The position numbers were made by a program, and so were the translations under genes. This document shows positions 4,594 to 21,520 of a stretch of DNA of 36,838 nucleotides, in pieces; position 1 is the stretch's first letter; every line of letters starts with the position of its first letter. Under the pieces are notes generated by a model. It saw only the letters and a list, made by a program, of their open reading frames with translations. It searched no databases and was not told the origin of the DNA. This DNA is from an uncultured Verrucomicrobiota bacterium. Its GTDB lineage: Bacteria > Verrucomicrobiota > Verrucomicrobiia > Limisphaerales > UBA9464. The stretch is taken from NCBI GenBank assembly GCA_903842505.1, contig CAIMMI010000082.1, forward strand, positions 1-36,838. The letters are read 5' to 3'.

Positions 4594-4662
4594 AGCCGCT
4601 TCGCGAGCCGTCCCCACTTTCAAGGTGGCCAGTTGCGAGAGTGCGGCTAGCCTTGCCGCCTC

Positions 4663-5076
4663 ATGCGCGTTTCTCGTCTGCTCCATACCCGCTACCGGGT
4701 CGATGACCTCGACCGCTCTGTCCGTTTCTACAAGGACGTGCTGGGTCTCGACGAAGTCCGCCGCCACAAGTCTCCGCGCGGTTCCGAACTCGTCTTTCTC
4801 AAGGCGCCCCAGAGCGAGGAAACGATCGAACTCTGCTCCTTCCCCGCCAGCGGCCCGGTCCACGTCCAGTCCGACCTCACGCACCTGGCCTTCGAGGTCG
4901 ACAGCCTGGCCGCCTTTGCCGAGCACCTCGCCCGCCTGGGGATGACCTACTCCGATGGACCCCACTACAAGTCCGATGGCTCGGGCGGGTTCGCCTTTGT
5001 CGACGCTCCTGAAGGCTACGAGATCGAACTGATCCAACGCTCCCCCTCCAGCGCGTCCACCAACCAGACCTACTAG
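4663..5076 (+). CDS. gloA: Glyoxalase I-like VOC protein (lactoylglutathione lyase family)
   Basis: A 137-residue vicinal-oxygen-chelate protein with two beta-alpha-beta-beta-beta repeats, the usual length for glyoxalase I (about 135). All four metal ligands of the family are present in register: His8 (RLLHTRYRV), Glu56 (TIEL), His74 (LTHLAFEV) and Glu122 (GYEIELI). Glyoxalase I isomerises the hemithioacetal of methylglyoxal and a thiol to the lactoyl thioester in the cytosol. The thiol partner in this organism is not known, and related VOC enzymes such as methylmalonyl-CoA epimerase share the fold, but the ligand spacing favours GloA. The gene lies 69 bases after the GT-C gene and eight bases before folP. 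Confidence 0.8.
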   Translation: MRVSRLLHTRYRVDDLDRSVRFYKDVLGLDEVRRHKSPRGSELVFLKAPQSEETIELCSFPASGPVHVQSDLTHLAFEVDSLAAFAEHLARLGMTYSDGPHYKSDGSGGFAFVDAPEGYEIELIQRSPSSASTNQTY

Positions 5077-5084
5077 GGTCCGCC

Positions 5085-5951
5085 TTGAGCCAAACGCCCC
5101 CACCTTCCTGGCGCGCCGGCGCCCACTGGCTGCCCACCGACCGCCGACCGCTGGTCATGGGGATCGTCAACGTCACACCCGACAGCTTTTCGGACGGCGG
5201 CTGCTTCCTCGATCCCGGGAAGGCCATCGAACAAGGCCTGCAACTCGCCGCGGAAGGAGCGGACCTCCTCGACATCGGTGGCGAATCCACCCGCCCGGGC
5301 GCCGAACCCGTGCCCATCGACGAGGAACTCCGACGGGTCCTGCCCGTCATCCGCGGTCTGGTCGCCCAGGGCGCCCCACCGCTGTCGATTGACACCCGCC
5401 ACGTCGAGGTCGCCGCGGCCGCCCTCGACGCCGGTGCGTGCATCGTCAACGACGTCCAGGCCAACCGCTCGGACGACTCCCTTTGGCGCCTCATCCGAGA
5501 CTCCGGTGCCGGCTACGTCTGCATGCACATGCAGGGCGATCCCGCCTCCATGCAACGTGCCCCTTCCTACGCAAACGTTACCTCGGAACTCCTCCATTTC
5601 TTTGCTGAACGCCTTGAACAACTCGCACGCCTCGGTGTCGATCCCGCCCAAGTGGCCATCGACCCCGGAATCGGCTTCGGCAAGACCGTCGAACACAATC
5701 TCCAACTCCTGCAGGACCTCGGAGATTTCACGCGCCTTTCGCGCCCGATCCTGCTAGGCATTTCCCGCAAGAGCTTCCTGGGCCGGGTTACCGGCGCAGC
5801 CACCCGGGACCGTATCCCGGCAGGCCTCGCCTGTACCGTCTGGGCTGCCCAACGCGGCACGCGGATCTTCCGCACCCATGATGTCGCTCCCACCGTCCAG
5901 TCGCTCCAGATCCTGAACGCCATCGAGTCGTGCTCCCGCCCGAAATCATGA
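5085..5951 (+). CDS. folP: Dihydropteroate synthase
   Basis: The 288-residue TIM-barrel enzyme condenses 6-hydroxymethyl-dihydropterin pyrophosphate with p-aminobenzoate to give dihydropteroate, a cytosolic folate step and the sulfonamide target. The family motifs are in order: MGIVNVTPDSFSDGG near residue 25, DIGGESTRPGA near 63, SIDTRHVEV near 102, a Mg/pterin-binding DPGIGFGKT near 195, and GISRKSFLG near 226. The first in-frame start is TTG at 5085 with a weak AGGG upstream; the next, ATG at 5157, would remove the first strand region, so TTG is chosen. The TGA stop overlaps the cdaA start in an ATGA. folP directly ahead of cdaA is the interesting context. Confidence 0.93.
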   Translation: MSQTPPPSWRAGAHWLPTDRRPLVMGIVNVTPDSFSDGGCFLDPGKAIEQGLQLAAEGADLLDIGGESTRPGAEPVPIDEELRRVLPVIRGLVAQGAPPLSIDTRHVEVAAAALDAGACIVNDVQANRSDDSLWRLIRDSGAGYVCMHMQGDPASMQRAPSYANVTSELLHFFAERLEQLARLGVDPAQVAIDPGIGFGKTVEHNLQLLQDLGDFTRLSRPILLGISRKSFLGRVTGAATRDRIPAGLACTVWAAQRGTRIFRTHDVAPTVQSLQILNAIESCSRPKS

Positions 5952-6757
5952 ACGGCGTCCTCCCATTCCTGCTGCACTGGTGGCGCCCCGCCCTCGAGAT
6001 CACCATTCTCGCCGTCGGGATCTATCACGCCTTCATCTTCCTCCGCGGCACCCGCGGCGCCCCCATTGTCACCGGCTTCCTCGCCCTCCTCCTCGCGCTC
6101 ACCCTCACCACCCGCCTGCTCGACCTTCAGGTCCTCAACGCCCTCCTCAGCCAGTTTTTCGCCTTTCTCGCTGTCGCCGTCGTCGTCCTCTTCCAACCCG
6201 AGATCCGGCGCATGCTCGCCCAACTCGGCAACCTCCCTCTCGTCCCCAACGCCCAGCAGGAACGCGAGAAGATCGAGGTCATCTGCGAAACCGTCGACCG
6301 CCTCGCCCCCGTCCGCATCGGCGCCCTCATCGCCCTCGAACAGGGAATCCAACTCGCCGACCTCGTTGAATCCGGAATCAACGTCGACTGCGAGGCCACC
6401 CCGGAAATGCTCGAGACCATCTTCTTTCCCAACAACGCCATCCACGACGGCGGCGTCATCCTCAAGGGCGACCGTATCCTCAAGGCCGCCTGCATCTTTC
6501 CCCTCACCCAACGCCTCGACCTCCACAAATCCCTCGGCACACGCCACCGCGCCGCCATCGGCCTGACCGAGGAAACCGATGCCGTCGTCGTCGTCGTCTC
6601 CGAGGAAACCGGCCAGATCTCTTACGCCCACCGCGGCAACCTCACCCGCAACGTCACCGTCGAGGAACTCCGCTCCGTGCTGACCCAGGTGCTCGTCCGA
6701 CGCAACGAACCCCGCAACTGGTTCCGCTGGCTCCGCCCTGCCCAGCGCTCCACCTGA
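5948..6757 (+). CDS. cdaA: Diadenylate cyclase, CdaA type
   Basis: The protein (269 residues from the ATG overlapping the folP stop) makes c-di-AMP from two ATP. It has the CdaA architecture: about three N-terminal membrane helices within residues 1-80, a short linker, then a DisA_N cyclase domain. The catalytic motifs are HDGG (Asp167-Gly-Gly) and RHR (199-201, TRHRAAIG). Most family members read DGA where this one reads DGG, a conservative change. A GTG 18 bases upstream could also start the frame, but the ATGA overlap with folP favours 5948. The downstream ybbR and glmM genes reproduce the cdaA-cdaR-glmM cluster known from Firmicutes, where CdaR and GlmM regulate cyclase activity. Confidence 0.93.
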   Translation: MNGVLPFLLHWWRPALEITILAVGIYHAFIFLRGTRGAPIVTGFLALLLALTLTTRLLDLQVLNALLSQFFAFLAVAVVVLFQPEIRRMLAQLGNLPLVPNAQQEREKIEVICETVDRLAPVRIGALIALEQGIQLADLVESGINVDCEATPEMLETIFFPNNAIHDGGVILKGDRILKAACIFPLTQRLDLHKSLGTRHRAAIGLTEETDAVVVVVSEETGQISYAHRGNLTRNVTVEELRSVLTQVLVRRNEPRNWFRWLRPAQRST

Positions 6758-6763
6758 CCCGCC

Positions 6764-7198
6764 ATGTCGCTCCGCGAGTTCATCACCTACAACCCATGGC
6801 AGAAGGGCTTCTCCCTCCTCTTCGCCATCCTCATCTGGTTCACCGTCCGCCAGAGCGTCGAAAGCAATGGCGGCGACCCCGTCGTCCCCGAGGCCTATTC
6901 CCGCACTTTCGAACATCTCCCCATCCGCGTCCTCACCCTCGCCACCGACCTCGAACAATCCCGGGTCACCCCGGGAGAGGTCACGGTCGTCCTCCGCGGC
7001 CGCCCGGAAGTCCTCAACCGCCTCCGCCCGCAGGACGTTGAAGTCTACGTCAACCTCACCGAGGCCCCCCCTTCCCCCTCCGACCGCCGCCCCGTCCACG
7101 TCAACGCCCCAGGCGCCCAACTGGGCTCCGTCTCTCCTCAGGAGGTGTTGATCGAACGGGTCGTTCCAACCCATAAATCTCCTCGGGACAATCCCTGA
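6764..7198 (+). CDS. YbbR/CdaR-like membrane-anchored regulator, single domain
   Basis: A 144-residue protein with one N-terminal membrane helix (residues 13-30, WQKGFSLLFAILIWFTVR) and one extracytoplasmic YbbR-type beta domain containing LPIRVL, RVTPGEVTVVLRGRPEVLNRL and YVNLTEAP. The N-terminal NPWQKGFSLLFAILIW run is typical of YbbR proteins encoded after diadenylate cyclases. Firmicute CdaR usually carries three or four YbbR repeats; here there is one, so it is a minimal version. It starts six bases after the cdaA stop and ends ten before glmM. By analogy it would bind CdaA from the outside and tune c-di-AMP synthesis, but this has not been shown for a one-domain form. Confidence 0.82.
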   Translation: MSLREFITYNPWQKGFSLLFAILIWFTVRQSVESNGGDPVVPEAYSRTFEHLPIRVLTLATDLEQSRVTPGEVTVVLRGRPEVLNRLRPQDVEVYVNLTEAPPSPSDRRPVHVNAPGAQLGSVSPQEVLIERVVPTHKSPRDNP

Positions 7199-7208
7199 CC
7201 CCATCCCT

Positions 7209-8591
7209 ATGTCTCATCCGAAACGCATCTTCGGCACCGACGGCGTTCGCGGCCGCGCCAACATCGAACCCGTCACCGCAGAAACCGCCCTCAAGCTCGG
7301 CCGGGCCGCTGCCCACGTCTTCCGCAACCTCGCCGGTCAGGCCCGCAACCGCGTCCGCTACCGCATCGTCATCGGCAAGGACACCCGCCTCTCCGGGTAC
7401 ATGCTCGAAAACGCCCTCTCCTCCGGCGTCCTCTCCATGGGCGTCGACGTCATCTTCATCGGCCCTCTCCCCAGCCCCGGCGTCGCCTACGTCACCCGCT
7501 CCCTCCGCGCCGATGCCGGCATCGTCATCACCGCCTCCCACAACCCCTATGATGACAATGGCATCAAGTTCTTCGGGCCCGATGGCTACAAGCTCGCCGA
7601 TGACATCGAGGACCAGATCGAAAACCTCGTCTTCTCCGGAGAGATCGAAAACATCCGCCCCACCGCCAGCGAGATCGGGAAGGCCTTCCGCGTGGACGAC
7701 GCCGTCGGACGCTACGTCGAACACGCCAAGAGCAGCTTTCCCCGCGGCATGACGCTCGAGGGCCTCCGCATCGTCCTCGATTGCGCCCACGGCGCCGCCT
7801 ACAAGTCTACCCCCGCCGTCCTCCAGGAACTCGGCGCCGAACTCATGGTCTCCGGCGTCCAACCCAACGGCACCAACATCAACGCCGAATGCGGCTCGAT
7901 GCACCCCGCCAGCCTCTGCAATCGCGTCCGCGAGTACCGCGCCGACCTCGGCATCGCCCATGACGGCGACGCCGACCGCGTCATCCTCTGCGACGAAAAC
8001 GGCTCGCTCATCGACGGCGATGACATCCTGGCCATCTCCGGGCTTCAGATGCTCCGCGAGGGTACCCTCAAGAAGAAGACCTTGGTCGCCACCGTCATGT
8101 CCAATGCCGGCCTCGACGCCGCCATCCAGGCTGCCGGCGGCTCCGTGATCCGCACCGCCGTCGGCGACAAGAATGTCATCGACCGCATGCTCGCCGACGA
8201 CCTCAACCTCGGAGGCGAACAGTCCGGTCACCTCATCTTCCGAGATCACAGCACCACCGGCGATGGCCTCGTCGCTGCCCTCCAGATCCTCGCCACCCTG
8301 AAGAGCCAGCAGAAGCCCCTCTCCCAACTCGCCAACTGCTGGAAGCGCTTCCCCCAACTCGTCTCCAACGTCCGCGTCCGCGAGAAGCGCCCGTTCGAGG
8401 AACTCGACGAAGTCCTCGCCCTCGTCGCCAAGGCCGAGGCCGAACTGAAGCCCCGGGGCGGCCGCGTTCTCCTCCGCTACTCCGGCACCGAACCCAAGGC
8501 CCGCCTCCTGCTCGAAGGCCCGGATCAGGGAACCCTCGAACGTCTGTCCCGCAGCATCTGCGAATCCATCCAGCGCCAGGTCGGAGCCTGA
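7209..8591 (+). CDS. glmM: Phosphoglucosamine mutase
   Basis: A 460-residue alpha-D-phosphohexomutase that interconverts glucosamine-6-phosphate and glucosamine-1-phosphate for UDP-GlcNAc, peptidoglycan and LPS synthesis. Seen in order: the N-terminal FGTDGVRG (8-15), the active-site serine loop TASHNPYDDNG with Ser110, the metal-binding DGDADR near residue 255, sugar-binding GGEQSGH near 338, and the phosphate loop RYSGTEPKARLL near the C-terminus. The set is complete and the length close to the family norm (about 445). In bacteria with the cdaA-cdaR-glmM cluster GlmM also binds and inhibits CdaA; the adjacency suggests the same here. It ends two bases from the 3' end of the opposing propeller gene. 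Confidence 0.95.
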   Translation: MSHPKRIFGTDGVRGRANIEPVTAETALKLGRAAAHVFRNLAGQARNRVRYRIVIGKDTRLSGYMLENALSSGVLSMGVDVIFIGPLPSPGVAYVTRSLRADAGIVITASHNPYDDNGIKFFGPDGYKLADDIEDQIENLVFSGEIENIRPTASEIGKAFRVDDAVGRYVEHAKSSFPRGMTLEGLRIVLDCAHGAAYKSTPAVLQELGAELMVSGVQPNGTNINAECGSMHPASLCNRVREYRADLGIAHDGDADRVILCDENGSLIDGDDILAISGLQMLREGTLKKKTLVATVMSNAGLDAAIQAAGGSVIRTAVGDKNVIDRMLADDLNLGGEQSGHLIFRDHSTTGDGLVAALQILATLKSQQKPLSQLANCWKRFPQLVSNVRVREKRPFEELDEVLALVAKAEAELKPRGGRVLLRYSGTEPKARLLLEGPDQGTLERLSRSICESIQRQVGA

Positions 8592-8593
8592 CT

Positions 8594-10606
8594 TCACCTA
8601 CCCGGCGCCCGACGCGCCCGGTAGGAACGCAGCCCAACCGCATCGACCGAACCGGCTCCGTCGATCACGCTCCCCGGGAGCTCCCCAGCCCCAAACAACC
8701 TGATTTCCGACCAGGATTTCAGGTCCAATGTCCGTTCCACCCACACGGGGCCTTCCGCACGCCCGAGCACCCGGAAGCGGACGCCGCCGACGGGCGTTGG
8801 CTCCGGCATCGAGAGTTCAATCCCATCCGCCGGTTCAAAGGGCGAAGCCAAGACGGTTCCCGTGTCGCCCACCGCCACAAAACGCCCGGCTCCAAAACCA
8901 ATTCCCGAAAGCCGGTTCGCGACACCCGAGGCCCGACTCGCCCAATCGACTCCGTTCCGCGAGACCACGATCCGGCCACCATCCCCAACGGCCACGTACG
9001 CACCCCGCGCCCAGACAACCGACGACAGGTTGACCTCCAAACCGGACTGCCGCGTTCTCCAGGCGATTCCCTCGGACGATCCCAGCACCGTGCCTCCCTG
9101 GCCTGTTGCCACCACACCTTCCTCACCCGACGCCACCGCCAGCAGGTCGGCCGTTGTCCCGGACGAGCGAACCACCCAACCCAGGCCGTCTTCGGAGGTG
9201 GCGATCACCCCACCGGTCCCGACCGCAACAAACCTCGTCCCCGTGTACGCGACGTCCGTCAACTCGCCTGAACCCACCACCGTCTGCGGTTGGCTCCACA
9301 CCACCCCATCCAAAGAACGACTCACCACCCCCAGCAAGGCGCCTGTTCCCGGATCCCGACGGACGCCCACCGCGACCCAGGCAACTGTCCCACGGACGAC
9401 CCGATTGAATCCCACTGCCGCAGACAACCGGACCGTCCAGTCAAACCCGTCGGGCGATGTCAGGATACGCCCGCCATCGGGCACGCCGCCTTGCCGCTGC
9501 ACCGCCACGAAACCAACCGCATCCGCTGCCACGCCCTGCAGGACGTTCCGCGTGTTCGGATCGGATCGCCGCAACCTCCAGTCACGACCATCTTCCGAAG
9601 TCAGCACCGTGCCCGCCTCGCCTACCGCCACGAACCGACCCCGCGCGTAGGCCACACTTCGAAGCCATAGCCGCGTCCCGTTCACCGGAACATTCCAGTT
9701 CGTCCCATCCCGGGTCTCGGCCACAGTCCCCCCATCACCCACCGCAACGAATCGATCCCCGGTCCACACCAGATCGTTCAGGACCGTCGCACCGCGCACC
9801 GACCCCCAGGTCCAGGTGCGTCCATCCAACGATCGGTAGGCGGTATGCCCATCCGACGTCGACTCCGACCCCAGCGCCACGAACACGCCACCGCCGAACG
9901 CAACCTTGCGAACATCCATCGTCGCTGGCCCAGCCTGGGTGTCCCAGTGGATCCCATCGGCTGAGGTCGCAAAATATCCCTGCGTTCCGACCACCACGTA
10001 CACGCCGTTGCCGTACGCGATCCCATTCAGTCGCTTGTTGCCACCCGCACCCGTGTTCAACCACGTCACCCCGTCGTCGGATCGAACCACGCAGTAATTT
10101 CCGCCAACCGCCCGGAACTGGCCATCGAGGTACGAAACCGCCGTCAGCGATTCTCCTGTCCCGGACAGCCGACGCGTCCAGTTCATCCCATCCTCCGAAC
10201 TCCGGATCCGACCAATCTCACCCGCCACCACAAAACGCCCTTCACCGTAGGCCACCCCCTGCAGGTGGACATCGGTCCCCGAGACCTGCGCCTCCCACGC
10301 CAATCCATCCGGCGATGTGACAACGCTCCCATAGTCGCCCACGGCGACAAATTTCCCCTGTCCGTGCGCTACCGCACGCAGCGGCTGATCCGTGACCCGG
10401 CCGCACCGGAACCAAACCACCCCATCCCGCGACAACCGCGTCCCGCCTTCCGAATCCACCGCCACCAGCAAGCCCTTGCCCGAGGTCACTCCCAGCAGGT
10501 CCGCCGATTCCACCTCCCAATGATCCTGAGCGACACCTCCGAGGCCCCCCAACCAAAGCCCCGTCAACGCGGACGTAATCCACGACACCCTTCGGGCAGC
10601 TTGCAT
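8594..10606 (-). CDS. Secreted BNR/photosystem assembly factor-like beta-propeller protein
   Basis: The 670-residue product starts with a signal peptide (MQAARRVSWITSALTGLWLG, likely cut near GVAQD) and then consists of about a dozen repeats of roughly 40-50 residues with the consensus A-V-x-Y-G-x-G-x-F-V-A-V-G-x-x-G-x-I-x-T-S-x-D-G-x-x-W. This is the BNR/YCF48-type blade pattern of beta-propellers. The last 70 residues form a separate module (VWVERTLDLKSWSEI, then SYRAR) also seen in the RCC1 protein at 16331-18562. The start is set by AAGGAG nine bases before the ATG at 10606; the frame continues upstream to 11122 but that part overlaps the opposing helicase gene. Function is unknown; export and a binding role are inferred. 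Confidence 0.8.
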   Translation of the reverse strand: MQAARRVSWITSALTGLWLGGLGGVAQDHWEVESADLLGVTSGKGLLVAVDSEGGTRLSRDGVVWFRCGRVTDQPLRAVAHGQGKFVAVGDYGSVVTSPDGLAWEAQVSGTDVHLQGVAYGEGRFVVAGEIGRIRSSEDGMNWTRRLSGTGESLTAVSYLDGQFRAVGGNYCVVRSDDGVTWLNTGAGGNKRLNGIAYGNGVYVVVGTQGYFATSADGIHWDTQAGPATMDVRKVAFGGGVFVALGSESTSDGHTAYRSLDGRTWTWGSVRGATVLNDLVWTGDRFVAVGDGGTVAETRDGTNWNVPVNGTRLWLRSVAYARGRFVAVGEAGTVLTSEDGRDWRLRRSDPNTRNVLQGVAADAVGFVAVQRQGGVPDGGRILTSPDGFDWTVRLSAAVGFNRVVRGTVAWVAVGVRRDPGTGALLGVVSRSLDGVVWSQPQTVVGSGELTDVAYTGTRFVAVGTGGVIATSEDGLGWVVRSSGTTADLLAVASGEEGVVATGQGGTVLGSSEGIAWRTRQSGLEVNLSSVVWARGAYVAVGDGGRIVVSRNGVDWASRASGVANRLSGIGFGAGRFVAVGDTGTVLASPFEPADGIELSMPEPTPVGGVRFRVLGRAEGPVWVERTLDLKSWSEIRLFGAGELPGSVIDGAGSVDAVGLRSYRARRAPGR

Positions 10607-10615
10607 GGCTCGAAA

Positions 10616-10621
10616 CTCCTT
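10616..10621 (-). promoter_or_regulatory. Shine-Dalgarno site fixing the propeller start
   Basis: On the minus strand AAGGAG lies nine bases before the ATG at 10606. A second AGGAGG at 10626-10631 is too far for that start. Such strong sites are rare in this window, and this one decides between 10606 and the long open extension upstream. Confidence 0.7.
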
Positions 10622-10760
10622 CCCACCTCCTGGAACCGCAATCCCCCAAGGACCTACGCCGGAGGCGTTGGGGAATCTGGAAACTGGCAACTGAGAACTC
10701 CGCCCTGGAACTCCCTCTGGCCGCCCCGCTCCAACCCCGGTAGCCTGTTCCCCATTCACG

Positions 10761-13700
10761 ATGCCTGAGGTTGCATCCGAACACGCAGTCCCCACCACGC
10801 CACCGCCGGTGCTTTCCGGCGTCTCCTTCCTGCACCGCTGCCTGCTCGTTGACCTCGAAGTCACCCTCCGCGGGCGCATCACCCACGTTGGTGCCATCCT
10901 CGGCGACCAAATCCGCTCCGGCACAGCCGCCACCGGACTCGAATTCCTCGACGCCCTCGCCGGACTGGCGGACGCCGTCATCGGACACAACATCATCGAG
11001 CACGACTTACCCCGCCTCCACTCGACCAACCCTGACCATCCACTGCTGCAACTGCCCGCCATCGACACGCTGGTCCTGTCGCCCCTCGCCTTCCCGGCGA
11101 ACCCGTACCACCGCCTCGTCAAGGACTACAAACTGGTCCGCGAAAGCTCCAACGATCCGCTCGCCGACGCCCGTCTCGCCGGCTTGCTCTTCCTCGACGA
11201 ATGGGAGGCCCTCGCCCAACTGCGAAGCACGCATCCCGATCTCTTCACCGCACTCCACCACCTGCTCGCCACCCCGGACCCCGACGCCCGTCCGATGGAC
11301 AATTCGGGGCGCGGCTTCGAACTGGTTTTCCGCGCGCTCTCGGAGGGGCGAACCCTTCCTCCCAGGGCAGTGGCCCTCGCCGCCATCCACCGCTGGATCC
11401 ACGCCCACTCCTGCACCCAGGCCCGCCTGCCAGAAGCCGCCCTCGATTCCCGTGCCGCTCGACTTGGCCTCGCTTTCGCCCTCGCCTGGCTCGGCGTCGC
11501 CAGCGGCAACTCCGTGCTTCCTCCGTGGGTCCGACGCCAGCATCCCGCCACCGTTGCCTTGCTCCGCGAATGGCGATGCCAACCCTGCACCGATCCCAAC
11601 TGTCCCTGGTGCACCCAGCAGTACGAACCCCGCGTCCAACTCCAGCGCTGGTACGGCTTCGATGACTTCCGCCCCGAACCCCGCGCCCCCGACGGTTCCT
11701 CCCTCCAACGCCGGATCATCGAGTCCGGCATGCGCGACGAATCGCTCCTCGCCATCCTCCCCACCAGCGGCGGCAAGTCGCTCTGCTTCCAACTTCCCGC
11801 CCTGGTCCGCCACCAGCGCACCGGCGCCTTGACCGTCGTCATCTCCCCGCTCCAGGCCCTGATGAAGGATCAGGTCGACGGACTCGTCCGCCGCACCGGC
11901 AACCCCTGCGCCGCCGCCCTCTACGGAATGCTCACGCCGCCCGAGCGCGCGGACGTCCTCCGCCGCACCCAACTCGGCGACATCGCCGTCCTCTACGTCT
12001 CCCCCGAGCAGTTCCGCAACCGTTCCTTCCGCTCCGCCATCGCCAACCGCGAGGTGGGCTGCTGGGTCTTCGACGAAGCCCACTGTCTCTCGAAGTGGGG
12101 ACACGACTTCCGCCCGGATTACCTCTACGCCGCCCGGTTCATCCGCGAGTTCTCGGCCGATGTCGGCGTCCCCGTACCCGCCATCGCCTGCTTCACCGCC
12201 ACCGCCAAACAGGAGGTCAAGGATGAGATCCTGTCGCACTTCGAGAGGGAGACCGGCCGCCAACTCGTGTCCTTCGAAGGCGGCGTCGAGCGCGACAACC
12301 TGCTCTTCTCCGTCAGGGAAACCGGCGAGCACGGCAAACTCGGACAGATCGACGAACTCCTCCGCGAACACCTCACCCCAGGCCTGCCCGGAAGCGCCGT
12401 CGTCTTTCGATCCCGACGCCATTTCACCGAGGCCACCGCCGAGTTCCTGCGCGCCCAGGGCTGGGCTGCCGAACACTTTCACGCCGGGCTCACCCCCCCG
12501 GAAAAGAAACGCATCCAGGACGAATTCATCGCCGGCCGCATCCAGGTGATCTGCGCCACCAACGCCTTCGGCATGGGCATCGACAAGGAAGACGTCCGTC
12601 TCGTCATCCATGCCGACACGCCCGGCTCGCTCGAGAACTATCTCCAGGAGGCCGGTCGGGCCGGTCGCGACGGACGCAACGCCCGCTGTGTCCTCCTCTT
12701 CGACGAGGAGGATTGCGAAGCCCAGTTCCGCCTCGGCGCCCTGTCCGAACTCAGCCGACGCGACATCGCCCAGATCCTCCGCGGCATCCGTAAGGCTTCC
12801 CGCGGTCGCGACGAGGTCGTCCTCACCAGCGGCGAACTCCTCCGCGATGAAGACGTCGACGTCTCGATCGACCCCGGCGGCACCCTGGCCGACACCCAGG
12901 TGCGCACGGCCCTCGCCTGGCTCGAACGCGCCGGCTTTGTCCAACGCAACGACAACGTCACCTCCGTCTTTCAAGCCCGTCCCCTCGTCCGGACCCTCGA
13001 CGAAGCCCGCCCCATCCTCACCCAACTCCAACTCCCACCACCCGAGGCCAATCTCTGGCTCGCGGTCCTCCGCGAAATCATGAACACGGCACCCACGGAA
13101 AACCTCACCGTGGACCAACTCGCCCTCCTCCCCGAGTTCGCCGCCCTCCATCACCAACGCCCCATCGATGCCTCAGGCCCCGCCTGGGTCTCCTCCCGGA
13201 TCCTCAAGACGCTCGACTCGATGGTCTCCGCCGGACTCCTCAAACGGGACACGCTCCTCACCGCCTACGTCCGACACAAGGTCACCGACCACTCCGCTCT
13301 CCGGTTCCAACGCGTCGTCAAACTGGAACACGCCCTCCTCGGCCTCCTCGTCGAGACCGACCCGGACCCAGACCCCGAACGCTGGCTCCCGCTCTCCCTC
13401 CCCCTCCTCAACCAGCGACTCCTCGACGAAGCCCATCCCACTTCCGTCGACCAACTCCGCTCCATCCTCGTCAGCATCGCTCAGGACGGACGCGGCTTCG
13501 CCGGACGCCACGGGAGCTTCGATCTCCGCGCCAATAACCACGAATCCCTCGCCGTCCGCATCCGCCGCGGATGGGACACCCTCCGCAAACTCTCCGAACG
13601 CCGCGCCCGCGCTGCCGACATCGTCCTCCGTCGTCTCCTCGACCGCATCCCCAAGGACGCCGCCACCCAGGCCGATCTCCTCGTCGAGTTCACCTTCGAG

Positions 13701-16052
13701 GAGCTTCGCAACGCCATCGAATCGGACCTCATTCTCCGCTCCGAAACACCCGATCTGAACGCCACCGTCGAACGTTCGCTGCTCTTCCTCCACGAGCAGA
13801 AGGTCATCGAACTCCGCCAGGGTCTCGCGATCTTCCGATCCGCGATGACGCTCCGCCTGAACCGGCAGAAGAACGGCCAACGCTACGGCAACACCGACTT
13901 CGAACCCCTCGCCTCCCACTACCGCGAACGTATCCTCCAGGTCCACGTCATGGGCGAGTACGCCCGCCGCGGCCTCGAACGGATGGAGGAGGCCCTCGAA
14001 CTCGTCCTCGCCTACTTCCGACTCGGACGCGAGGAATTCGTCCAGCGTTACGTTCCCCTCAAGGCCGCCGTCCGCGAACACGCCACCACCGCCGCCTCCT
14101 ACGAGCGCATCGTCACCGACCTCGAGAACGCCGACCAGATCCGCATCGTCACCGCTCCGCTCAACCGCAACCTCCTCGTCCTCGCCGGCCCCGGCTCCGG
14201 AAAGACCCGCACCGTCGTCCACCGGACCGCCTTCCTCCTCCGTGTCCATCGCGTCCGCGCCCGCTCGATCCTCGTCTGCTGCTTCAACCGCAGCGCCGCC
14301 CTCGAACTCCGCCGCCGCCTCGTCGAACTCGTCGGGGACGACGCCCGCGGCGTCACCATCCTCACCTACCACTCGCTCGCCCTCCGCCTCCTCGGACGTT
14401 CTCTCACCCGGAAACCCTCCACACCCCACCAGAACGCAGACGGCAGTTCATCCGCCGCTTCCGAGGAAATCCAGTTCGACCATCTCGTCATCGAGGCCAC
14501 CGCCCTCCTCAAGGGCCAGCGCATCTCGCCCGGCATCGAATCCGACGAAATCCGCGACCGCCTCCTCGCCGGCTTCGAACACATCCTCGTCGACGAATAT
14601 CAGGACATCGACGAACACCAGTACCAACTCATCGCCGCCCTCGCCGGCCGCAACGTCGACGACCCGGACCAGAAACTCTCGATCCTCGCCGTCGGCGACG
14701 ACGACCAGTCGATCTACGCCTTCCGCGGCGCCAACGTGGAATTCATCCGCCGCTTCCAAACCGACTACCAGGCCGACGTCCAGTACCTCGTCGAAAACTA
14801 CCGCTCGTCCCGCCGCATCATCGACGCCTCCAACGCCGTCATCGCCATCAACCGCGACCGCATGAAGACCGGTCGCCCCATCCGCATCGACCGACACCGC
14901 GCCGATGCCCCAGCCGGCGGCCCACTGGAATCCCTCGACCCTCTCTCCCGTGGCCGTGTCCAGGTCATCGCCGTCGATGACCCGACCCACCAGGCCGAGG
15001 CCATTCTCGCCGAAATACGGCGCCTCCGTTCCCTCACCCTCACTCCTTGGTCGTCGTTCGCCATCCTTTCCTCCGAACACAAGGACCTCGCCCTCGTCCG
15101 CGCCGTCCTCGAACGGGAATCCATCCCGGTCCGCTGGCGCGCCGACCGCGCCCACTGGCCCAGCCTCCTCCACTTCCGCGAGATCCACGATTTCCTCCAC
15201 CGCATCGACTCCACCAATCGACGGCAGGTAAATCACGCCGAGCTTCTGGATTGGCTCGTCGAGGCCCGGTCCAACCACGGCTCAGCCAACCCCTGGATCC
15301 TCCTCCTAGAGCGACTCGTTGATTCCTGGAAGGACGAAGCCGGCGACACCGACGTCCCCGCCATCGACGTCGCCCGCTTCTTCCGCGAAACGCTCATCGA
15401 AATCCGACGCGACTCCGACGCGACCGACGGTGTCGTCCTGTCCACCGTCCACGCCGCCAAGGGCACCGAATACGACCACGTCCTGCTCGCCGGCCCCTGG
15501 CCCGAGGCTCCCGACCTCCGCCGTTCCGAGGAACGCCGCCGCACCTTCTACGTCGGCATGACCCGCGCCCGACAGTCACTCTCCGTCCTGGACCTGCGCA
15601 CCCTCCGTCCCTCGCTCCCCGGTCAGTTGATCACCCCCGAACTCCTCGCCCGCTCCGCCGTCGCCGCGCCAACCGATCCCAACATCCAGCACCGCCATTA
15701 CTCGATCCTGAGCCTCGGCGACATCTTCCTCTCCTTCGCCGGCATCCACCCAGACGGCGCCCCCATCCATCAGGCCCTCACCCAACTCCGCCCCGGCGAC
15801 CGCGTCCAACTCCGCCCCAACCCCAAGGGGATCGTCGAGATCCTGGACTCCGGGAAGACCGTGATTGGAAAATTGTCCCAGACCGGCTCCCGCATCTGGG
15901 CACCGCGCCTCGATACCTGCCAGGAAGTCCGCGTGCTCGCTCTGATCCGTCGCGTCCCCACCCCGGGCTCCGATCCCGAATCGCAGATCGAACTCCGCTC
16001 AACGTCTTGGGAAATTCCGCTCCTCGAAATCGTCTGGCAGGACCGTCCGTAG
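10761..16052 (+). CDS. Giant fusion helicase: DEDD exonuclease-like, zinc knuckle, RecQ and UvrD/PcrA domains
   Basis: This 1763-residue protein joins four modules. Residues 25-150 resemble a DnaQ-type 3'-5' exonuclease: DLE (Asp31, Glu33), GHNIIEHD (Asp82) and NDPLADA (Asp136); Asn131 stands where the general-base His is expected. Residues 273-284 are a C-x2-C-x4-C-x2-C zinc-knuckle-like motif. Residues about 310-680 are a RecQ SF2 helicase: LPTSGGKS (Lys339), DEAH (438-441), FGMGIDK and QEAGRAGRDG (629 on). After a long linker, residues about 1135-1610 are an SF1 UvrD/PcrA helicase: GPGSGKT (Lys1148), VDEYQD (1278), GDDDQSIYAFRG, TVHAAKGTEYDHV (His1564) and FYVGMTRAR. A role in DNA repair, recombination or defence is inferred; the partner genes are not nearby. 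The TAG stop lies in a palindromic repeat. Confidence 0.9.
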   Translation: MPEVASEHAVPTTPPPVLSGVSFLHRCLLVDLEVTLRGRITHVGAILGDQIRSGTAATGLEFLDALAGLADAVIGHNIIEHDLPRLHSTNPDHPLLQLPAIDTLVLSPLAFPANPYHRLVKDYKLVRESSNDPLADARLAGLLFLDEWEALAQLRSTHPDLFTALHHLLATPDPDARPMDNSGRGFELVFRALSEGRTLPPRAVALAAIHRWIHAHSCTQARLPEAALDSRAARLGLAFALAWLGVASGNSVLPPWVRRQHPATVALLREWRCQPCTDPNCPWCTQQYEPRVQLQRWYGFDDFRPEPRAPDGSSLQRRIIESGMRDESLLAILPTSGGKSLCFQLPALVRHQRTGALTVVISPLQALMKDQVDGLVRRTGNPCAAALYGMLTPPERADVLRRTQLGDIAVLYVSPEQFRNRSFRSAIANREVGCWVFDEAHCLSKWGHDFRPDYLYAARFIREFSADVGVPVPAIACFTATAKQEVKDEILSHFERETGRQLVSFEGGVERDNLLFSVRETGEHGKLGQIDELLREHLTPGLPGSAVVFRSRRHFTEATAEFLRAQGWAAEHFHAGLTPPEKKRIQDEFIAGRIQVICATNAFGMGIDKEDVRLVIHADTPGSLENYLQEAGRAGRDGRNARCVLLFDEEDCEAQFRLGALSELSRRDIAQILRGIRKASRGRDEVVLTSGELLRDEDVDVSIDPGGTLADTQVRTALAWLERAGFVQRNDNVTSVFQARPLVRTLDEARPILTQLQLPPPEANLWLAVLREIMNTAPTENLTVDQLALLPEFAALHHQRPIDASGPAWVSSRILKTLDSMVSAGLLKRDTLLTAYVRHKVTDHSALRFQRVVKLEHALLGLLVETDPDPDPERWLPLSLPLLNQRLLDEAHPTSVDQLRSILVSIAQDGRGFAGRHGSFDLRANNHESLAVRIRRGWDTLRKLSERRARAADIVLRRLLDRIPKDAATQADLLVEFTFEELRNAIESDLILRSETPDLNATVERSLLFLHEQKVIELRQGLAIFRSAMTLRLNRQKNGQRYGNTDFEPLASHYRERILQVHVMGEYARRGLERMEEALELVLAYFRLGREEFVQRYVPLKAAVREHATTAASYERIVTDLENADQIRIVTAPLNRNLLVLAGPGSGKTRTVVHRTAFLLRVHRVRARSILVCCFNRSAALELRRRLVELVGDDARGVTILTYHSLALRLLGRSLTRKPSTPHQNADGSSSAASEEIQFDHLVIEATALLKGQRISPGIESDEIRDRLLAGFEHILVDEYQDIDEHQYQLIAALAGRNVDDPDQKLSILAVGDDDQSIYAFRGANVEFIRRFQTDYQADVQYLVENYRSSRRIIDASNAVIAINRDRMKTGRPIRIDRHRADAPAGGPLESLDPLSRGRVQVIAVDDPTHQAEAILAEIRRLRSLTLTPWSSFAILSSEHKDLALVRAVLERESIPVRWRADRAHWPSLLHFREIHDFLHRIDSTNRRQVNHAELLDWLVEARSNHGSANPWILLLERLVDSWKDEAGDTDVPAIDVARFFRETLIEIRRDSDATDGVVLSTVHAAKGTEYDHVLLAGPWPEAPDLRRSEERRRTFYVGMTRARQSLSVLDLRTLRPSLPGQLITPELLARSAVAAPTDPNIQHRHYSILSLGDIFLSFAGIHPDGAPIHQALTQLRPGDRVQLRPNPKGIVEILDSGKTVIGKLSQTGSRIWAPRLDTCQEVRVLALIRRVPTPGSDPESQIELRSTSWEIPLLEIVWQDRP

Positions 16053-16330: not shown

Positions 16331-18562
16331 TCAGTTCGGAAAGTTCAGTGGAGCATCCGGATTCCGCAACCGGTAGAACCGCGCACCGCCACCGATGTCC
16401 GACGGGGTGAATGGCTCCGACGGCAAACCCGGATCCGGGACCTGATACGTCTGCACGGTCTCCCAGTCCTGGAGATCGGAAGAACGCTCCAGCACGAGGG
16501 AACCGGTCGTAGGCGGAACCTGGAAGGGCACAGTCGTCGCACCAACTTTCAAGGCCAGCTTCGACCGCTGGTAGGACCGAAACACCAGGGCATTTTCATT
16601 CGAACTCCGCCGGATCGTCCGACGGCCCCGATCATCCACGGCCTGGATCGTTGAAAAAGTCACCTCAACGAGGCCTGTGAACTCAACGTGGTAACGACGC
16701 GGCGTGCCCAGGGCAGCCGAAGGAAACGTCCGGGTAACACGGAAGGGATTGCCAATGACGAAGTCATGCTCGATGGACAGCTGGGCAACGTAGCCATCGG
16801 GATCCTCAACCTCCACGAAGTACTCCATCCCGCGACTGCAATAGACCTGCACCCCCGGCGGCGGCCAGACCACCCGGATGGCCGGAGAGAGGTTCTCGGG
16901 GACCGTCGGCTGATACCGGACACGAACCGGTTGTTCCCCATCCGCCTCGTACCAACGGGAAGGAGCCAACGAGAACTCCAACCACAGCGGTGTATTGTCC
17001 GCCTCGACGTAACTCGCATCCAAGGCCAGTGCCAGGCTGGTCTCCGAAGCCTCCAACCCGGCAAACTCGACGGCGCCCCGATTCACAAACAATCGCCAGA
17101 AATTCGTATCCGGACTCGGCAGGCCATTGGTCAGGAACGCCGCAACCCTCAACACCTGACGAAAGGGGACGACGGCGGTTCCCTCCCGTTGCAGCCGCAA
17201 CCGGGCGGCGTGCCCGTTCGTCCGTCGCGGGTTGGAAGGCTCGACCATCTGCTCGTCCTCCACGGTAAGCCGAAGCCGGGGCAACACGGCAGGCGTCCCC
17301 AGTAGAAATGGGGCCGCGCCTCCCGGAATGACGAGCGGTTGGGGATTGCTTGGCGTGACCACCGGGATCCCGCCCAACTGCCCATCGTCGTTGACGCCCT
17401 TCGCCCGGACCAATCCGTCCGGACCGAGGATCAACTGGAACAAAGGCGTCACCGACAACGCCTGAACCGGTTTCAGCTGAGGCTCCAATCGCATCCGGGT
17501 CTTGGCCCGGAACAGGTCCGGCGCCATGGTCCCAGGGAAGGGCCAGACCGTATCTCCCGGCCCGCATCCGGAAACCTCGCCAGCTTCGTCCACGAACAGG
17601 TAGCCGACTGTGTGATACCCGAGCCCCACCAACTGCCGCACCGGCAGCCCCGACGGTGCTCCCGGCACGAAACGCGGTTCCCGCATGGGGGCTTCCGAGA
17701 ACCCCCTTTCCACGTCAAACACATGACCCCAGACATAGATCTCGTCCCGATCCGTCCAGCCAAAGACCTGGTTCGATACCACAGCGATGCGCGTCCAGAC
17801 ACTTGCACCCACCGGCGGATCGACCTCCAGGAATCCCGTGCTGAATGAAGTCCCAGTCAATCCGCTCCGCGGACCCATCAACCCCAGGGACTCCTCGCCC
17901 GCAACAAAGACCCGTCCGGACTGCGTCAACGCCACAAAGCACCGACCGCCGCCCACCACATCCACCACCGGTCCCGCGTCAACCGGCAAGCCGGCCGGGT
18001 CCTCGCGGTACTCCGAGAATGCCAACGCCGACGCCAGCGCTGGTCGAGGAGCACGCAGCCACCACAGCGCACCGGATTCATCAATGCCCAAACCGAATGG
18101 CGCCAAACCCAACTCCGCCGTCACCACGGGGGGCACCGCCTTCTTCCAGGTTCGACTTCCAAGCCGCACCGGAAGCAGCGCCCGACTGTTCGGAGCCGAC
18201 GACGGGTTGATCTCAGGGGGGATCTCGGGTTCGCCCCAGGCGAAGAGGCGGCCATTCTGATCGATGGCGAAGTAGCGCAACCCCGGCGCGAACCAGCGCC
18301 ACTGCTTCACCCCTTCCGGAAGCGGCGCCGGTCGCCCGCTCAACCGGCTGTCCGTGGTTCCGTCGCCGTATTGCCCGAAATCATTGGACCCCCAACACCA
18401 CAACAGCCCGTCGTCTCCCAGGACGTAAGACGTCGCACGGGACCCTCGGGAAATCGCGGCATGGATCGTCGATGCCACCAACGTCTCCACCAGCGGCACG
18501 GCCACCAAACAGATCGCGATCCACAGGGGGTACCAGCGGCACGGATTCGGTCGGGAAGGCAT
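16331..18562 (-). CDS. RCC1-repeat (beta-propeller) protein, exported or membrane-anchored
   Basis: The 743-residue product has an N-terminal hydrophobic segment (residues 11-30, YPLWIAICLVAVPLVETLVA) that would act as signal peptide or anchor. It then shows RCC1-type blades: DDGLLWCWGSNDFGQYGDGT (50-69), QNGRLFAWG, QSGRVFVAGEESLG, DEIYVWGHV and DGLVRAKGVNDDGQLGG. A middle region looks like Ig/cadherin-type beta sheets. The last 70 residues (LVLERSSDLQDWETV ... GGARFYRLRNP) form the same kind of tail as in the propeller at 8594-10606. RCC1 repeats usually serve as a binding scaffold; the ligand is unknown. Upstream lie repeats; the gene probably has its own promoter. Confidence 0.8.
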   Translation of the reverse strand: MPSRPNPCRWYPLWIAICLVAVPLVETLVASTIHAAISRGSRATSYVLGDDGLLWCWGSNDFGQYGDGTTDSRLSGRPAPLPEGVKQWRWFAPGLRYFAIDQNGRLFAWGEPEIPPEINPSSAPNSRALLPVRLGSRTWKKAVPPVVTAELGLAPFGLGIDESGALWWLRAPRPALASALAFSEYREDPAGLPVDAGPVVDVVGGGRCFVALTQSGRVFVAGEESLGLMGPRSGLTGTSFSTGFLEVDPPVGASVWTRIAVVSNQVFGWTDRDEIYVWGHVFDVERGFSEAPMREPRFVPGAPSGLPVRQLVGLGYHTVGYLFVDEAGEVSGCGPGDTVWPFPGTMAPDLFRAKTRMRLEPQLKPVQALSVTPLFQLILGPDGLVRAKGVNDDGQLGGIPVVTPSNPQPLVIPGGAAPFLLGTPAVLPRLRLTVEDEQMVEPSNPRRTNGHAARLRLQREGTAVVPFRQVLRVAAFLTNGLPSPDTNFWRLFVNRGAVEFAGLEASETSLALALDASYVEADNTPLWLEFSLAPSRWYEADGEQPVRVRYQPTVPENLSPAIRVVWPPPGVQVYCSRGMEYFVEVEDPDGYVAQLSIEHDFVIGNPFRVTRTFPSAALGTPRRYHVEFTGLVEVTFSTIQAVDDRGRRTIRRSSNENALVFRSYQRSKLALKVGATTVPFQVPPTTGSLVLERSSDLQDWETVQTYQVPDPGLPSEPFTPSDIGGGARFYRLRNPDAPLNFPN

Positions 18563-18674: not shown

Positions 18675-18871
18675 TGTCCTCACGAGCCGCCGAAGAGCCC
18701 CAAGTTTCAGGTTTCAGGTTTCAGGTCTCAAGCAAGGGGTGGGGCGAGACTCCGTCGAGCCGCTCCAGAGTTCGAAGTTTTCAGTTTCAAGTTTGAAGCG
18801 GGAGCTGGCCTTGAATCTTGAATCTTGAAACTTGGGAGTCCCAAACGGCTCGTGAGGACACTGGCCCCCCC
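18675..18871 (+). repeat. Terminal-inverted-repeat element, copy 1 (plus partial copy)
   Basis: The core copy is 18738-18871. Its left end reads GGTGGGGCGAGACTCCGTCG followed by AGCCGCT, and its right end AACGGCTCGTGAGGACACTG followed by GCCCCCCC. The ends are inverted relatives sharing GGTGGGGCGAG-like and CGAGCCG-like blocks. Between them are seven-base repeats (CTTGAAT/TTTCAAG type). Just before it, 18675-18737 holds a partial end (TGTCCTCACGAGCCG) and a tandem AGGTTTC heptamer. The element lies in the 369-base gap between the RCC1 and thuA-like genes and is the reverse-oriented relative of 19961-20084. The remainder of the gap shows nothing else. Confidence 0.65.
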
Positions 18872-18931
18872 GCTGGGGGCAGCGTCCAGGTGAGCCCATC
18901 CCGATCCCGCAGTCCCCTTCAAACTCCCCAC

Positions 18932-19876: not shown

Positions 19877-19960
19877 CTACGCCCGGACCGTGGATGCAGG
19901 CGACCCGAAATCCGGACGCAATTCAGTTCGGAATGCATCTTGGCACTGCCCCCAGCGTGA

Positions 19961-20084
19961 GGTGGGGCGAGTGTCCTCACGAGCCGTTTGGGAGTCCCAG
20001 GTTTCAAGTTTCAAGGCCAGTGCTTGAAACTTGGATCTGAAAACTTGCGACTTCAGCAACGGCTCGACGGAGTCTCGCCCCACC
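19961..20084 (+). repeat. Terminal-inverted-repeat element, copy 2
   Basis: The 124-base element starts with GGTGGGGCGAG, then TGTCCTCACGAGCCGTT, and ends with AACGGCTCGACGGAGTCTCG followed by CCCCACC. The outer 11 bases (GGTGGGGCGAG) and inner nine (CGAGCCGTT) of the two ends are exact inverted matches; the bases between them differ. The middle contains TTTCAAG heptamers and a GGCCAG that also occur in copy 1 in reverse complement. No reading frame spans it, so it would be a non-autonomous, MITE-like element. The rest of the 362-base gap (19877-19960, 20085-20238) shows nothing recognisable. Confidence 0.65.
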
Positions 20085-21294: not shown

Positions 21295-21325
21295 CTTTCC
21301 CTCCGCGTCGGGGCACCCTCCGTTG

Positions 21326-21387
21326 GTAGGCCGCGTGCCCCCACGCGGCGTTTCACCATCCCCGCCGGGTGAAGGCACCCGGCCTAC
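21326..21387 (+). repeat. Palindromic intergenic repeat (GTAGGCC type)
   Basis: The arms GTAGGCCGCGTGCC and GGCACCCGGCCTAC pair over 13 of 14 positions, with about 34 bases between. It stands 31 bases after the HD-CoaD stop codon. It is a different family from the CGTAGCC repeats, though both start with GTAG. It may be a REP-type element or help end transcription. Confidence 0.65.
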
Positions 21388-21520
21388 AAGCCGTCGGCCG
21401 GGTCCAACCCCGTTCGGGCTCAGGTCAGGGGCGAGAGGCCCCCGAATCCACGCGGACCCCAAATCCGCATTTGCCCGTGTACGTACCATCGGTCAACCTC
21501 CGCCCAACCGGTTCTCCTCC

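Follow-up and report, generated by a model that had tools for sequence, protein, structure and literature searches.

A bacterial protein that joins a DEDD-exonuclease-like domain, a four-cysteine site and RecQ- and UvrD-type helicase cores in one chain, found across several phyla

The window (the whole analysed stretch of 36,838 nucleotides, from an uncultured Verrucomicrobiota bacterium) encodes a single predicted protein in which a DEDD fold, a four-cysteine site, a RecQ core, a linker and a UvrD core follow one another, and sequence comparison shows that the combination is preserved in several phyla. Dozens of unrelated bacteria have the same protein, which appears to be unstudied. As to its function, we tentatively favour, with slightly less than even confidence, a self-contained accessory enzyme that processes DNA with two motors, most likely in conflict with foreign DNA. 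The features on which this prediction is built are listed in Table 1.

Table 1. Features of the fusion gene, with positions in the window
Feature	Positions	Strand	Basis
Complete gene (DEDD fold, four-Cys, RecQ, linker, UvrD)	10761..16052	+	One intact frame translated without a stop, 1763 residues; full-length relatives; purifying selection in the relatives' domains
DEDD-exonuclease-like domain, residues 22-145	10824..11195	+	Invariant carboxylates; phage exonuclease-subunit profiles; strand-helix order of the model
Helical domain with putative four-cysteine metal site, residues 146-290	11196..11630	+	Invariant cysteines; helices of the model
C218, first of the conserved cysteine set	11412..11414	+	86/86 sequences
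C276-x4-C281-x2-C284 (C-x3-C-x2-C in subfamily B)	11586..11612	+	86/86 sequences
RecQ SF2 helicase core, residues 291-660	11631..12740	+	TIGR00614; motifs; structure match to RecQ
Conserved folded linker, residues 661-1118	12741..14114	+	Model and conservation; same frame as the N-terminal domain
UvrD-like SF1A helicase, residues 1119-1612	14115..15596	+	Pfam; motifs; structure match to UvrD
C-terminal domain, residues 1613-1763	15597..16049	+	Evolves fastest of all the domains; absent from subfamily B; faint HIRAN-like signal

From a genome scan, the best 80 relatives of 383 confirmed candidate stretches were retained. These come from Verrucomicrobiota, Kiritimatiellota, Pseudomonadota, Thermodesulfobacteriota, Myxococcota and Acidobacteriota, and 72 of the 80 encode a near-full-length protein in a single frame (1600 or more aligned residues, or close to that where a contig end cuts the gene). 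A frameshift or assembly join of two adjacent genes, which the original prediction had named as a finding that would refute it, is thus ruled out. The count of homologues with the same domain order that it called for is extended by two profiles, A3 for the N-terminal region and A4 for the linker, neither of which includes a helicase core. Both find an identical set of 17 out of 388 Verrucomicrobiota genomes with strong scores and in the same frames, the exception being genome G235, where the copy is split in two adjacent frames. The few extra A3 matches, at E of about 1e-4, are mostly to frames of 195 residues, with one longer. A deeper branch, subfamily B, is about 30% identical, has about 1607-1664 residues and is without the C-terminal 150 residues. 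Five of the 17 Verrucomicrobiota carriers, translated in full, belong to it, the copy in genome G229 has a B-like length, and many of the copies on viral contigs are of this type. The domains are always fused, including in subfamily B, and therefore the fusion is old. Copies at loci L085, L094, L128 (genome G041) and L130 (G235) are broken by stops or frameshifts, either through decay or through assembly errors in these metagenome bins.

Comparison of close pairs gives dN/dS values of 0.03-0.33 for the five main domains and 0.19-0.46 for the C-terminal one, so that purifying selection maintains every part of the protein. The AlphaFold2 models are confident (mean pLDDT of 88.8 for residues 1-700 and 86.2 for residues 651-1763), and the fold-search matches of both models were taken up by the helicase cores. 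The claim that two complete helicases of different superfamilies lie in one chain behind an exonuclease-like domain is borne out by Pfam, NCBIfam and motif conservation, and across 73 sequences there is little or no variation in the Walker A lysines (K339 and K1148), the two DE boxes and the motif VI arginines of both motors.

The first motor matches the NCBIfam RecQ model TIGR00614 over residues 314-655 (269 bits against a cutoff of 219.8), with a DEAH box (438-441), an aromatic-rich loop (SKWGHDFRPDY) and motif VI (QEAGRAGRD) conserved, as are the core motifs in general, throughout the relatives. The modelled core aligns with E. coli RecQ (1oyy) with Z 25.6 and 2.3 A over 347 residues, and with Z of about 25 to BLM and RECQL5. 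By its SF2 motifs and aromatic-rich loop we place it in the RecQ family at the level of the core, which resembles those of E. coli RecQ, BLM, WRN and RECQL5 in being complete. The fusion protein differs from this family in carrying a UvrD motor and in lacking an RQC zinc module downstream of the core, since residues 661-1118 contain no cysteine that is invariant or nearly so; the HRDC domain gave no Pfam match up to E 1, and the RecQ orthologue model TIGR01389 scores 321.6 bits, below its equivalog cutoff of 640.2. The second motor matches the N- and C-terminal UvrD domains of Pfam (PF00580 at 1e-44 and PF13361 at 8e-21, residues ~1123-1609), carries DEYQD at 1278-1282 and YVGMTRA as motif VI, and in the model aligns with UvrD (2is6) with Z 26.5 and 6.5 A over 469 residues. 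With both domains and all motifs present, it is predicted to belong to the UvrD/Rep SF1A helicases and shares their full core with UvrD, PcrA and Rep, whereas it falls under every equivalog cutoff (182 bits against 1144 for TIGR01075) and, within the fusion family, is found only behind RecQ. Orthology to either RecQ or UvrD is ruled out by full-length scores far under the equivalog cutoffs. The full set of motifs, the confident models, the strong structure matches, the invariable fusion and the purifying selection all favour the accessory dual-motor enzyme.

WRN likewise has a DEDD-type domain ahead of a RecQ core in one chain. Compared with WRN, the fusion protein is bacterial, adds the four-cysteine domain and the UvrD motor, and has neither the RQC zinc site nor a Tyr or His at the catalytic position. 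The shared order, the repair-family origin of both motors and the purifying selection on all domains would also suit an accessory enzyme of repair or recombination, functionally a bacterial WRN with an added UvrD motor, which acts at stalled forks or in end resection on the host chromosome and has no special role against foreign DNA. We regard this alternative as possible but doubtful, for reasons of distribution given below.

The region between the motors, for which the original prediction had proposed structure modelling (residues 680-1130), is well folded in the model and not a spacer. It is predicted with good confidence and is strongly conserved, and a sequence search with its profile against solved structures gave no significant match. 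The same search with the C-terminal domain also gave no significant match. This domain ends with an invariant W-x2-P-x2-E pattern. HIRAN is a 3'-end binding domain, and PF08797 matches the C-terminal domain weakly (E 1.2; hhalign profile comparison P 0.02, probability 2%), such that a HIRAN-like C-terminus is only a lead.

Residues D31, E33, D82 and D136 correspond to the four metal-binding carboxylates of DEDD exonucleases and are invariant wherever aligned (86 sequences). In the AlphaFold2 model, the strand-helix order is that of a DEDD exonuclease, and 22-23 of 24 members are hit by PHROG profiles of phage DNA-polymerase exonuclease subunits, with best values of 2e-5 and 8.8e-5; the best match to a PHROG DNA polymerase profile is at 6e-8. 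Together these uphold the original call of an exonuclease-like domain. Pfam gives only a trace (RNase_H_2, 0.0094), and a search of solved structures with the domain's profile gave no significant match. DEDD exonucleases have a His or Tyr four to five residues ahead of the last Asp, the His of DEDDh enzymes being five before it. Here none of the 86 sequences has either at the corresponding position, 131, where N, S or A occurs instead, and position 132 is D or N in nearly all and H in one. A canonical DEDDh or DEDDy active site is thus ruled out, and exonuclease activity cannot be assumed because this His or Tyr is missing, a point that counts against the nuclease part of the favoured enzyme.

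The N-terminal domain may instead be a dead nuclease fold that clamps 3' ends, leaving the protein as a pure helicase/translocase. This would fit any reading of its role, and we consider it a serious possibility while leaning against it. The altered position 131 and the poor prediction of loop 121-125 in the AlphaFold2 model speak for it, but dead folds usually lose their metal-binding carboxylates, and all four are invariant here, which argues for metal binding. In addition, H117 and K121 are near-invariant in the 86 sequences and could stand in for the missing His, so perhaps the domain catalyses with an altered general base.

Behind this domain, a C-x2-C-x4-C-x2-C zinc knuckle had been proposed. 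The string is present at residues 273-284, but its first cysteine, C273, is private to the window protein (almost every relative has Asp or Glu there), and a knuckle of this form is ruled out as a family feature. The family-wide set is C218, C276, C281 and C284, and by this comparison the knuckle is partly coincidence. The conserved four form a putative metal site, for either zinc or an iron-sulphur cluster.

The gene is distributed as an accessory one. In the window's genus it is carried by four of nine genomes, and it lies on different contigs in genomes G000, G004 and G007. Collinearity between the window and four genus mates extends from ~4660 to 8590 and breaks off there; at the syntenic position, four genus mates lack the stretch with the fusion gene and its DUF6242 and RCC1-repeat flanks. 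The GC content shows no step at the fusion gene. The DUF6242 frame (8594-11122, minus strand) overlaps the start of the fusion gene on the opposite strand, and the RCC1-repeat protein (16331-18562, minus strand) lies on its other side. Further along, positions 18738-18882 and 19946-20084 are inverted copies, 80% alike, of a dispersed, MITE-like repeat of ~120-180 bp with ~35-40 more copies in the same genome (73-94% identity). Another short repeat, at ~21306-21412, has many copies in genus mate G006 and also occurs in G001 and G004.

Plasmids with the gene were identified in alphaproteobacteria, Chromatiaceae and Thiothrix, with weaker matches in cyanobacteria; in 16 plasmid records the match spans 80% or more of the protein. 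One 40-kb IMG/VR contig (L194/L218) has it inside a prophage of alphaproteobacterial type, immediately downstream of an O-like replication initiator, with genes for a ParB-methyltransferase, TerS and TerL on the other side. On this contig, the stretch 9434-11553 beside the fusion gene encodes a response-regulator-like protein and, in a second frame on the opposite strand, a probable sensor kinase, an unusual cargo for a phage. At L196 the gene abuts a prophage. The presence in only some genomes of the genus and of the phylum, on different contigs, on plasmids and in a prophage supports the favoured accessory enzyme and stands against a repair enzyme of the host chromosome. The plasmid records, the place next to the replication initiator and the presence of subfamily B in viral contigs could also mean that phages and plasmids process their own DNA with this protein and that the chromosomal copies are remnants or domesticated. 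We judge this improbable, since none of 50,697 phage records has a place covering 80% of the query, most copies lie on chromosomal contigs where phage families are not prominent among the nearest neighbours, and IMG/VR contigs classed as viral may carry flanking host DNA.

Canonical RecQ, scored over the curated cutoff, is present in 14 of 20 carriers, which rules out replacement of the host RecQ. Because carriers usually keep an ordinary RecQ, and the window's genome has other UvrD-family genes, we conclude that the fusion protein is an addition. This supports an accessory role in conflict and counts against one in general repair. In a Myxococcales bin, a second RecQ frame lies immediately upstream of the fusion gene (L072:403-2448). 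The gene tree is largely consistent with clades in Methylococcaceae and Chromatiaceae, and this inheritance, along with the conserved surroundings in Methylotuvimicrobium, is as expected of a stable housekeeping gene, favouring repair over the conflict role.

The gene was described in the original prediction as standing alone, and this holds at 78 loci. Clustering of the neighbours gave no recurring partner and thus ruled out a conserved operon; apart from a common cluster of sensors and regulators, recurrence is confined to the local synteny that Methylotuvimicrobium and its close kin retain. A solitary gene is consistent with a repair enzyme, whereas many defence systems have recurring partners. 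Defence genes are nevertheless found nearby. Within 4.5 kb of 20 copies, 29 PADLOC models were matched at 1e-40 (112 called genes), compared with 2 in random stretches of the same 20 genomes (114 genes); many of the 29 match the same protein, so that the true contrast is about five proteins against at most one or two. The five are two restriction-methylase matches, QatA, PDC-S05 and PDC-S23, with a type IIG enzyme near the L059 copy and QatA near that at L087. On plasmid pALVIN01 a type I restriction operon lies directly downstream of the fusion gene, on pTfr153 a type I-D CRISPR locus is ~4 kb away, and restriction or Abi-like genes, recognised by eye from translations, are next door at L193, L222 and L226. 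The fusion gene has defence genes, among them restriction and Qat genes, close by more often than random regions of the same genomes do, which is suggestive but no proof. This excess points towards conflict and away from plain repair, but it comes from about five proteins at 20 loci. Together with the mobile locations it gives circumstantial support to an anti-phage role.

The helicase cores match two PADLOC models of known defence systems strongly, DpdF at 1e-101 and GajB at 1e-52. Only residues 288-680 align with DpdF (NCBIfam DpdF 177 bits against a cutoff of 550), and the neighbours include no recurring GajA-like partner family as in Gabija. Orthology to DpdF or GajB is ruled out, since the alignments cover only the cores and the DpdF score is far under its cutoff. 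A single-gene system against phages or plasmids, with SF2 and SF1 3'-5' motors and a nuclease-fold end sensor dismantling foreign forks and ends without partners, seems to us unlikely.

For the favoured accessory enzyme, we can sketch a mechanism. The RecQ and UvrD families both move 3'-5' on single-stranded DNA, and by family both motors of the fusion protein would do so. As both run in this direction, each could take a different strand at a fork, D-loop or gapped end, or the two could work in tandem on the same strand. The enzyme would then open branched or ended DNA and translocate along it, with the DNA end gripped or trimmed by the N-terminal domain, a DNA-binding module that the cysteine site, with zinc or Fe-S, would support. 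The role may be to unwind or clear phage and plasmid intermediates, not to replace the host RecQ or UvrD.

The closest functional analogies are to WRN and to RecBCD, AddAB and AdnAB, and by the tests made the protein is a member of none of these. RecBCD, AddAB and AdnAB are multi-subunit enzymes with two motors, and the likeness to such two-motor or motor-plus-nuclease machines on DNA ends would be one of principle: the fusion protein is a single chain, pairs SF2 with SF1 and has a DEDD-like instead of a RecB-type nuclease domain. In line with the original remark that no RecQ-UvrD fusion was known to be characterised, no description of such a protein was found in the literature searched, a search that most subscription literature lies outside. 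Where the gene is listed on plasmids, it is annotated as 'RecQ family ATP-dependent DNA helicase', and because databases give it this label its spread has gone unnoticed. A single-chain pair of SF2 and SF1 motors, in fixed order across phyla, plasmids and prophages, would solve the two-motor problem in a new way and provide a compact test case for how two 3'-5' motors share a substrate.
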